Assembly: GCF_037081715.1 (NCBI RefSeq)
Contig: NZ_JAZDDH010000002.1
Span: forward strand, 310,001 to 374,000
Direction: 5' to 3'
Length of the DNA stretch: 64,000 nt
From: Halalkalicoccus sp. CG83
GTDB lineage: Archaea > Halobacteriota > Halobacteria > Halobacteriales > Halalkalicoccaceae
A model generated the notes under the pieces. The model saw only the letters and a program-made list of their open reading frames with translations. It searched no databases and was not told the DNA's origin. Within the stretch, counting starts at the first letter, position 1. Every line of letters starts with the position of its first letter. Below are positions 54,368-57,030 of this stretch, piece after piece. A program made the translations under genes and the position numbers.

Positions 54368-56284
54368 ATGAGCACGGTAGACCAGAAACTCGACGACGCA
54401 CTCGCAACGATCAGAAACGAAATTCCGGACGATATCTCCGTCTCCGACGTCACCTACGAGGGACCGGAGTTGGTCGTCTATACGCGCGAACCCAAGAAGT
54501 TCGCCCAGCAGGGCGACCTCGTCCGCCGGCTCGCAAGCAAGCTTCGAAAGCGCATCACCGTTCGACCCGACCCGGACGTCCTTTCCCCGCCCGAGGAGGC
54601 CAAAGAGCGCATCCGATCGGTCGTACCGGAGGACGCCGGCATCACGGATCTCGACTTCCACGCCGACACCGGCGAGGTGGTGATCGAGGCCCAGAAGCCC
54701 GGCATGGTGATCGGCCGCCACGGCTCGACGCTGCGCGAGATCACCAAGAAGGTCGGCTGGACGCCAGAGGTCGTCCGGACGCCGCCGATCGAGTCGCCCA
54801 CGGTCTCGAACGTCCGCAGCTTCCTCAAACAGGAACGCGACGACCGCCGCGACATCCTCGAACGGGTCGGTCGCCAGATCCACCGCGAACAGCTCTCCGA
54901 CGAGCAGTGGGTCCGGATCACCACGCTGGGCTGCTGTCGCGAGGTCGGCCGCGCGGCGTTCGTCCTCTCGACGGCCGACACCCGCATCCTGATCGACTGC
55001 GGCGACAAGCCCGGCTCCGACGACGTGCCGTACCTCCAGGTGCCCGAAGCGCTCGGTTCGGGGGCGAACTCGCTCGACGCCGTGGTGCTGACACACGCCC
55101 ACCTCGACCACTCCGCGCTGCTTCCCCTGCTGTTCAAGTACGGCTACGACGGCCCGATCTACACCACCGAGCCCACGCGGGACCTGATGGGGCTGCTCCA
55201 ACTCGACTACCTCGACGTCGCGGCCAAGGAGGGGCGCACCCCGCCGTACGAGTCGGAGATGGTGCGCGAGACGATCAAGCACACCATCCCGATCGAGTAC
55301 GGCGACGTCACCGACATCGCGCCCGACGTGAAGCTCACGATGCACAACGCGGGCCACATCCTCGGCTCCGCCGTCTCACACTTCCACATCGGCAACGGGC
55401 TTTACAACGTCGCCTTCTCGGGCGACATCCACTACGAGGAGACCCGACTGCTCAACGGCGCGGTCAACGACTTCCCGCGCGTCGAGACGCTCGTGCTGGA
55501 GTCGACCTACGGCGGTCGGAACGACTACCAGACCGACCAGTCCGACAGCGAGGCGTCGCTCAAACGGGTCATCAACGAGACCTACGAGCGCGACGGGAAG
55601 GTGGTGATCCCGGCGTTCGCGGTCGGGCGCTCCCAGGAGATCATGCTCGTCCTCGAGGAGGCGATGCGAAAGGGCGACATCCCCGAGATGCCGATCCACC
55701 TCGACGGGATGATCTGGGAGGCGACCGCGATCCACACCACCTACCCCGAGTACCTCAACGACGACGTCCGCGACCGGATCTTCCACGACGATCAGAACCC
55801 CTTCCTCGCGGACTACTTCAACCACATCGATCGTGGCGAGGACGAGCGCCAGGAGGTCGCCGACGGCGAGCCGTGTATCATCCTCTCGACCTCAGGGATG
55901 GTCACCGGCGGCCCGATCATGTCCTGGCTCGAACACCTCGGGCCCGATCCGGACAACCGGATGGTGTTCGTCGGCTACCAGGCCCAGGGCACCCTCGGAA
56001 GACGGATCCAGAACGGCTGGGACGAGATCCCGATGAACGGTGGCCGCGGGCGCTCGAACCACCTGACCCTGAACCTCGACGTCGAGACCGTCGACGGCTT
56101 CTCCGGTCACGCCGACCGACAGGGTCTCGAGAACTTCGTCAAGACGATGAACCCCCGTCCCGAGAAGGTGCTCTGCGTCCACGGCGACGAGCGATCGACA
56201 CAGGACCTCTCGAGCGCGCTGTATCACGACTTCAACATGCGGACGTTCGCACCCAAGAACCTCGAGACGTTCCGCTTCAAGTGA
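54368..56284 (+). CDS. fttA: beta-CASP ribonuclease aCPSF1 / FttA transcription termination factor
   Basis: This 638-residue archaeal CPSF73 homologue cuts nascent RNA and ejects the polymerase at U-rich terminators. Two KH-type RNA-binding domains (about residues 1-140) contain KPGMVIGRHGSTLREITKK. The metallo-beta-lactamase core begins near ITTLGCCREVGRAAFVLS. Its metal motif HAHLDHS (HxHxDH), AGHILGSAVSHF and the FSGDIHYEE motif are intact. The beta-CASP insert includes VIPAFAVGRSQEIMLVLEE, and the closing domain STSGMVTGGPIMSWLE leads to the last metal-site segment DGFSGHADRQGL and CVHGDE. It is directly followed by an array of seven perfect hairpins. Confidence 0.96.
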   Translation: MSTVDQKLDDALATIRNEIPDDISVSDVTYEGPELVVYTREPKKFAQQGDLVRRLASKLRKRITVRPDPDVLSPPEEAKERIRSVVPEDAGITDLDFHADTGEVVIEAQKPGMVIGRHGSTLREITKKVGWTPEVVRTPPIESPTVSNVRSFLKQERDDRRDILERVGRQIHREQLSDEQWVRITTLGCCREVGRAAFVLSTADTRILIDCGDKPGSDDVPYLQVPEALGSGANSLDAVVLTHAHLDHSALLPLLFKYGYDGPIYTTEPTRDLMGLLQLDYLDVAAKEGRTPPYESEMVRETIKHTIPIEYGDVTDIAPDVKLTMHNAGHILGSAVSHFHIGNGLYNVAFSGDIHYEETRLLNGAVNDFPRVETLVLESTYGGRNDYQTDQSDSEASLKRVINETYERDGKVVIPAFAVGRSQEIMLVLEEAMRKGDIPEMPIHLDGMIWEATAIHTTYPEYLNDDVRDRIFHDDQNPFLADYFNHIDRGEDERQEVADGEPCIILSTSGMVTGGPIMSWLEHLGPDPDNRMVFVGYQAQGTLGRRIQNGWDEIPMNGGRGRSNHLTLNLDVETVDGFSGHADRQGLENFVKTMNPRPEKVLCVHGDERSTQDLSSALYHDFNMRTFAPKNLETFRFK

Positions 56285-56292
56285 AAGCCCTC

Positions 56293-56544
56293 GGAACGCA
56301 CTGGCGTGCGTTCCTCGCCCTTTTCATTTCCTAAGAAAGGCCGCGAAGCGGCCTTTCTGGGTCCCGGAAATCGAAGATTTCCGAAGACCACCAGGCACCG
56401 CCGAGTCGCGCCGGGCGATCGCCCGGCGCTTTCGGGACCAGCCTTTCCCCGCCCCGCTCACGGGACGCGAAGCGTCCCGTTCGCCAGCGAGATCGCTCCG
56501 CGATCTCGCGCTGCTCACGGAGCCGTCGGGAGTGACGGCTCCGT
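56293..56544. repeat. array of seven perfect inverted repeats (hairpin array)
   Basis: Seven hairpins with no mismatch follow each other. Stem positions are 56293-56301/56306-56314 (9 bp), 56334-56344/56348-56358 (11 bp), 56365-56372/56376-56383 (8 bp) and 56408-56418/56419-56429 (11 bp, no loop). The rest are 56460-56468/56472-56480 (9 bp), 56487-56496/56500-56509 (10 bp) and 56517-56527/56534-56544 (11 bp). Three have the loop GAA, two of those within the GCGAAGC minihairpin core. Stem sequences differ from one another, so this is not one repeat copied seven times. A further pair GGTCCCG (56360-56366) and CGGGACC (56433-56439) could enclose hairpins 3 and 4. Confidence 0.85.
56302..56331 (+). 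terminator. probable fttA terminator (hairpin plus T tract)
   Basis: The first hairpin of the array ends at 56314 and is followed by ccttttcatttcc. Archaeal termination depends on U tracts, often with aCPSF1; a T-rich run 35 nt past the stop fits, though the hairpin is not required in archaea. Confidence 0.4.
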
Positions 56545-56637
56545 TCGCGCCGGCCACCATTTTCGCACCGCTATCAATAGGACCTTCACCAGTGACGAAC
56601 AGTAACCGTTCTCAGGACGGACGACGAACGACGTCCA

Positions 56638-57030
56638 ATGCACCGGATCGGCTCACGGGGGTGGCTCGCCCTCGGCACCCTGTTCGCCGCCGTGGCGACC
56701 GCCGGGAGCCTCTACTTCAGCGAGGTCCTCGGGCTGGTCCCCTGTGAGCTCTGCTGGTATCAGCGGATCTTCATGTATCCTCTGATCCCGGTCCTCGGGA
56801 TCGCGGCGATCGAGAACCGGCCCGATGTCTATCGGACCGCACTCGCACTGGCGGTTCCTGGAGCGGGGATCGCCGCGTACCACTCGGCGATCCAGCGTCT
56901 CGGCGGCGAGAGCTGTTCGATCGGGAGCGGCTGTACGACCATCCAGTACGAACTGCTCGGACTCTCCATACCGAACATGGCGTTTCTCGCGTTCGTCCTC
57001 GTAAGCGTCGCGGTGCTGGCCGCGCGCTGA
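56638..57030 (+). CDS. dsbB: disulfide bond formation protein DsbB
   Basis: This 130-residue four-helix membrane protein re-oxidises a DsbA-type thiol oxidase and passes electrons to quinone. The first cysteine pair is in PCELCWYQRIFMYP (CxxC with the family WYQR). The second pair lies in ESCSIGSGCTTIQ. Length and topology are standard. No dsbA partner is adjacent. It follows the hairpin array by less than 100 nt. Confidence 0.95.
   Translation: MHRIGSRGWLALGTLFAAVATAGSLYFSEVLGLVPCELCWYQRIFMYPLIPVLGIAAIENRPDVYRTALALAVPGAGIAAYHSAIQRLGGESCSIGSGCTTIQYELLGLSIPNMAFLAFVLVSVAVLAAR

Follow-up and report, generated by a model that had tools for sequence, protein, structure and literature searches.

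The gene for the archaeal termination factor FttA (aCPSF1) of Halalkalicoccus sp. CG83 is followed by a dense run of hairpins, and the question raised by this locus is what these hairpins are and whether they serve the factor encoded just upstream. An earlier note on the window (the whole 64,000-nucleotide stretch of DNA analysed here) had described them as seven exactly complementary hairpins and suggested self-regulated termination of the fttA transcript. Comparison with other genomes indicates instead a single copy of a modular element that occupies intergenic sites in the Halobacteriales. We read it, with an even chance of being right, as a strand-symmetric terminator or insulator with a mobile-element-like history.

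A composite element behind fttA

Direct inspection of the sequence confirms seven perfect hairpins at 56293–56544. Dinucleotide shuffles of these 252 nt (300 replicates) contain 0.1 such hairpins on average and two at most, the predicted RNA fold of the array reaches −155.4 kcal/mol (z = −9.2), and the hairpin list of the window holds no second cluster of equal density. All Rfam families score below the gathering threshold (best 27.7 of 39.8 bits). Pfam matches bear out the names given earlier to the two flanking genes. The features of the locus are as follows.

54368–56284, + strand: fttA, the host gene (Pfam KH_TffA, Beta-Casp, RMMBL and Lactamase_B; PF17214, PF10996)
56283–56558, + strand: composite element in full, 276 nt (about 161 nt of core, 58 of Y and 57 of X); boundaries GAAAG and GGCCACC by comparison of copies
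56283–56337, + strand: H1 module, by match to covariance model R1 (73.8 bits) and covariation; the last bases of the match already lie in insert Y
56293–56314: hairpin 1 (H1 stem), 9 bp, loop TGGC
56332–56389, + strand: insert Y (hairpins 2 and 3), 58 nt, approximate boundaries by comparison of copies
56334–56358: hairpin 2, 11 bp, loop GAA
56365–56383: hairpin 3, 8 bp, loop GAA
56408–56429, + strand: hairpin 4 (H4), palindrome of 11 bp without a loop, GATC centre (CGATCG); most core copies have a counterpart hairpin with other stems
56438–56459, + strand: conserved linker CCAGCCTTTCCCCGCCCCGCTC, from alignment A5
56458–56514, + strand: insert X (hairpins 5 and 6), 57 nt, flanked by the direct repeat GCTCACGG
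56460–56480: hairpin 5, 9 bp, loop GAA
56487–56509: hairpin 6, 10 bp, loop TCC
56517–56544, + strand: hairpin 7 (H7), 11 bp, loop GGGAGT; 7 of 10 pairs changed on both sides in A5
56638–57030, + strand: dsbB, the downstream gene, outside the element (PF02600)

The fttA 3′ regions of relatives, together with further copies found elsewhere in this genome, indicate that the seven hairpins are parts of unequal standing: a core of H1, H4 and H7 (~162 nt) and two inserted double-hairpin units, 2+3 and 5+6. This composite build was overlooked in the first reading, as were the start of the element inside the fttA stop codon (TGA, 56282–56284, whose GA doubles as the element start) and its 3′ limit at 56558, past the 252-nt array. 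Without inserts, the core measures 158–168 nt (160–168 nt in the 22 copies chosen for alignment) and reads GAAAGCCCTC, H1 stem, TGGC, complementary stem, TCGCCCTTTTCAT, H4, a linker resembling that of the window, H7 and the 3′ end CGCGCCGGCCACC; H1 stands about 10 nt from its 5′ end and H7 about 14 nt from its 3′ end. The H1 module consists of a GAAAG/CTTT(T)C outer helix, a CCCTC/TCGCC internal loop, the 9-bp stem with its TGGC loop, and the tail CCCTTTTC.

Insert Y, located between H1 and H4, is missing from the fttA copies of four genomes (G001, G002, G003 and G006) and from three other copies in G000 (L041, L042, L043); the G004 copy has it with an altered stem. Insert X was found in five genomes, all of this genus, and its first hairpin nowhere else. 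Its location varies: before H7 in the window, within the 3′ side of H1 in G004, and after H7 in a further G000 copy (L051), and the G003 copy lacks precisely its 57 nt. All inspected X copies lie inside core elements, beside H1 or H7. Elsewhere, H1 modules occur in tandem or nested, inside or beside one another (L053, L137, L142, L096), and an irregular ACCGC-rich tail often stands 3′ of the element (L058, L086, L062, L073), also in Halococcus and Halapricum.

Two details of the hairpins had attracted attention earlier. The three GAA loops and the two GCGAAGC cores are there, yet this heptamer is no genome-wide signature: it is rarer (568 + 595) than its reversed control (856 + 825), and the cores are incidental. 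The complementary sequences GGTCCCG and CGGGACC, thought able to join hairpins 3 and 4 in a larger branched structure, likewise exist, but the minimum-energy fold does not pair them across the two hairpins and, by eye, the G004 copy has not kept them. A 99-residue open frame built wholly of hairpins (56306–56605) continues in frame with fttA past its stop. Read-through of FttA was considered and rejected: other elements show no preference for this frame, the median open frame past the stop (79.5 codons) being not clearly longer than in the other two (66.5 and 68.5).

Pairing and turnover of the stems

In the alignments the loops and linkers of the element are conserved, and its stems are exchanged for unrelated but complementary ones. 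Across 25 H1 modules, all nine stem pairs change on both sides, with 87 double-change cells against 28 in shuffles, and pairing falls to 30–44% when the structure is slid; the collecting pattern fixed the flanks of most of these modules, so the invariance of the flanks is partly by construction. The core alignment (22 members) has 127 double-change cells against 35.5 after shuffling; here H7 covaries too, and the outermost H1 pair goes jointly from G-C to A-U. The 15 copies at fttA sites of different genomes, taken alone, give 50 against 15.4, again with all nine H1 pairs changed on both sides. These counts ignore phylogeny and leave out H4, which MAFFT misaligned. The earlier preference for selection on structure over recent copying is strongly supported by stems that covary fully in relatives and by an array position kept within the genus; the lack of conservation that the earlier note had named as refuting did not arise.

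Wobble pairs are nearly absent: 1248 pairs of H1 stems contain nine G-U and seven A-C. In a control of only three tRNAs, four of 69 pairs are G-U and none is A-C. Since G-U is no commoner than A-C, the pairing is maintained equally for both strands, either by a process at the DNA level or because both transcripts need to fold. A further 85 mismatches are T.C or C.T, mostly in a recurring CTCG/CTCG motif. This symmetric motif, with its tandem T.C and C.T mismatches, is seen in stems, at stem bases and beside insert X (e.g. L043, L041, L139). Insertion of the hairpin into an older CTCG site was rejected, as 117 genomes hold no hairpin-less version barring two degraded matches in G001. One G001 locus (L209, C4:58220–58243) carries GAAAGCCCTCACTCTTTGCATGTC, which has no hairpin and may have arisen from H1 by deletion.

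The turnover of stems is rapid. H1 stems are alike at no fewer than eight of nine positions in 18% of same-site pairs between congeners and in 2–3% of different-site pairs. Even the latter figure is well above the chance level, roughly 0.01% for random 9-mers by our own estimate, so stem alleles are common to different sites. In congeners whose FttA C-terminal regions are 91–94% identical to that of the window, stems at the orthologous site can differ completely. Homogenisation of stems within genomes was rejected, because different sites share stems at 2.1% within genomes and 2.9% between them. A stem change seems to require no second copy as donor, because stems differ even among family f8 genomes in which the only copy detected is the one at fttA; these genomes may, however, hold a copy too weak to be detected. 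A test for shuffling of H1, H4 and H7 alleles is suggestive only, its loose clusters lumping unlike H4 and H7 stems.

Host genes, sites and signs of movement

Among 117 genomes of the Halobacteriales, 45 contain a match to the H1 covariance model. In a phylum sample it matches 19 of 393 genomes, all 19 in the same order, and the core was not found outside Halobacteriales in that sample. Better assemblies of Halalkalicoccus carry 8–25 copies and the incomplete G005 six; the core also occurs in other families. A viral or plasmid origin was rejected after two exact-pattern scans of viral sequences and one plasmid BLAST gave no match.

The most widespread host gene is fttA (families f1, f6, f7 and f8). 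The single copy detected in f8 sits there in all four genomes concerned (G016, G067, G105, G438), and exact-pattern loci of two Natrinema species are likewise at fttA. Other recurrent hosts encode glutamate dehydrogenase, GyrB, a PhoU-domain protein, gamma-glutamyltranspeptidase (ggt), an IscA-like protein, EF-1 beta, a small protein ending in RRYQM (L054/L063/L128) and a SWIM-like protein (L041); the last two have no Pfam match, and "SWIM-like" is our own reading. In f5, three genomes of genus g38 have a single detected copy each, and it adjoins the RRYQM gene. When 40 further fttA genes were examined, most lacked the element: G087 has a match, G032 and G060 have foreign hairpin units within H1, and the G081 site appears degenerate. 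The sister genus (G007, G008) has no element at fttA.

Of 147 elements, 92 start −2 to +4 nt from where a same-strand stop codon ends, compared with 2.2% of random positions in the same loci, and the commonest overlap is the GA of TGA. The 5′ edge is flush, and a spacer is usual on the 3′ side. Many of the remaining elements adjoin a divergent gene and begin 36–45 nt before its start codon, which by eye places them against the outer border of the core promoter. The right-hand neighbour is convergent in 53 cases and tandem in 38 (rough gene calls from open frames and base composition).

Occupancy varies among Halalkalicoccus congeners at several sites. Two unoccupied sites (L253, site S8 of G006, and L243, site S4 of G000) keep GGCCACCGC or CCACCGCACC, as if a deletion had left the 3′ end of the element. 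Where a copy lies antisense to the 3′ end of an acyl-CoA dehydrogenase gene, 30–57 bp of that gene end recur as a direct repeat on the far side of the copy. These cases come from several genera (L060, L067, L075/L117, L076 and L151, the last at about 3960 on the reverse strand) and resemble a long target duplication; at most sites no target duplication was seen. Comparison of congeners revealed no clean unoccupied site that would show a short target duplication, most empty intergenic regions there being too diverged to align. The only transposase profile sought, PF01797 (Y1 transposase), was undetected in seven copy-bearing genomes (G000, G001, G002, G014, G041, G042 and G052), several of the richest among them. 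From the varying occupancy, the 3′-end stubs and the direct repeats, and with PF01797 undetected in several rich genomes, the family behaves as though its members had once moved or been exchanged, even as individual sites endured.

Function and the nearest known systems

The element appears to be previously unnamed; no description of the family was found in the open literature (most subscription papers were outside reach), and the nearest in kind are the PATEs and SMRs of Haloquadratum. In bacterial REP elements the palindrome sequence itself is conserved, whereas here the structure is conserved and the palindrome sequence is not, few stems being alike even at the same site. REP and REPIN elements share with it the build of extragenic palindromes in composite multi-copy arrays (PMC3116915, PMC2817692). 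PATEs, the palindrome-associated transposable elements of Haloquadratum walsbyi, come closer: they too are haloarchaeal, short, non-coding, multi-copy, heterogeneous and attacked by smaller elements, carry palindromes close to each end, show no terminal inverted repeats and are too short to hold a transposase gene (PMC3119063). Unlike them, the present element is tied to stop codons, promoter edges and conserved host genes and has variable stems with kept pairing. The palindromes of PATEs are related in sequence to the ends of IS605-type transposons; no Y1 transposase was found here in several rich genomes. PATEs make no target duplication, and the present sites are mixed in this respect, most showing none and those at acyl-CoA dehydrogenase genes showing long direct repeats. 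SMR-A elements are ~110 bp long, have prominent inverted terminal repeats and insert in the near-terminal palindromes of PATEs (PMC3119063). Units X and Y are also small and lie inside a larger palindromic element beside its hairpins, but they are about half that length and consist of two separate hairpins each.

A further likeness is to haloarchaeal terminators. In Haloferax volcanii, the intergenic termination motif is a T stretch ending at C, hairpins lie upstream of 503 sites, and the median 3′ UTR is 97 nt (PMC7237163). The window copy has the same arrangement behind its gene, a hairpin followed by CCCTTTTC 41 nt past the stop; many other copies have TTT only (TTTGC, TTTCAAT). Those terminators are a loose motif (PMC7237163), whereas the present element is a homologous family with a conserved loop, internal loop and linkers.

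We propose that the H1 module, with its GAAAG/CTTTTC outer helix, GC-rich hairpin and TTTTC, would act as a transcription terminator or insulator on either strand. The transcript would fold into the hairpin, and at the T-rich tail the polymerase would be released or FttA would cut. Stem sequence could vary freely as long as it stayed palindromic, specificity residing in the loops, the internal loop and the tail, and a need to fold on both strands would explain the near-absence of G-U. Covariation in H1, in the core and at fttA sites, abutment on stop codons, the fit of the tail to the Haloferax motif, the excess of convergent over tandem neighbours and the strand symmetry of the pairing all argue for this reading. 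It is weakened by the many copies between divergent promoters, where a terminator is unneeded and an insulator or passenger fits better, by the short T tract of many copies, by the gyrB–gyrA copy, which would cut a likely operon, and by the sites empty in congeners, at which the element must be dispensable.

The main rival is non-autonomous mobile DNA of PATE or REP kind, whose hairpins would be used as single strands by an undescribed transposase or recombinase and for which gene-side sites would be safe landing places. The earlier note's alternative of a mobile palindromic cluster is partly right in this sense: four of the seven hairpins belong to nested inserts, copies are many and patchily spread with occupancy differing inside the genus, and the long direct repeats and the divergent sites, which need no terminator, point the same way. 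But the same host genes recur across families, the one copy detected in f8 is always at fttA, and neither PF01797 in the seven genomes, despite their many copies, nor a clean empty site was seen; we consider this origin possible, though doubtful. A process at the DNA level fits the shortage of G-U equally well, and stems replaced wholesale, with alleles common to different sites, could be by-products of palindrome correction by template switching at hairpin-prone sites, devoid of RNA function. Such correction leaves the conserved loops, internal loop and T tail and the exact abutment on stop codons unexplained, and we regard it as very improbable.

The link to fttA itself suggested by the earlier note holds in part. 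As the most widespread host, the sole site found in f8 and a site at which stems covary on their own, fttA could carry a feedback signal through which its product would cleave or end the fttA transcript, copies elsewhere being secondary. Many unrelated genes serve as hosts, however, one family has its only copy at another gene, and the sister genus and most of the further fttA genes lack the element; such a signal is improbable as the origin of the family. Self-regulation is not the general explanation, because the element also follows other genes and adjoins divergent promoters; specific to FttA, it is possible but unproven. The bolder combination, a strand-symmetric element defined by loops and linkers, whose stems are swapped without relocation at orthologous sites of one copy each and which is kept behind fttA across several families as a feedback terminator, seems unlikely to us.

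Haloarchaeal termination signals have so far mostly been described as loose T stretches. A homologous, structure-conserved family at the stop codons of housekeeping genes, fttA included, would be a defined and portable test object for archaeal termination and for site choice by FttA, and the element also offers a naturally occurring case of very rapid compensatory change.
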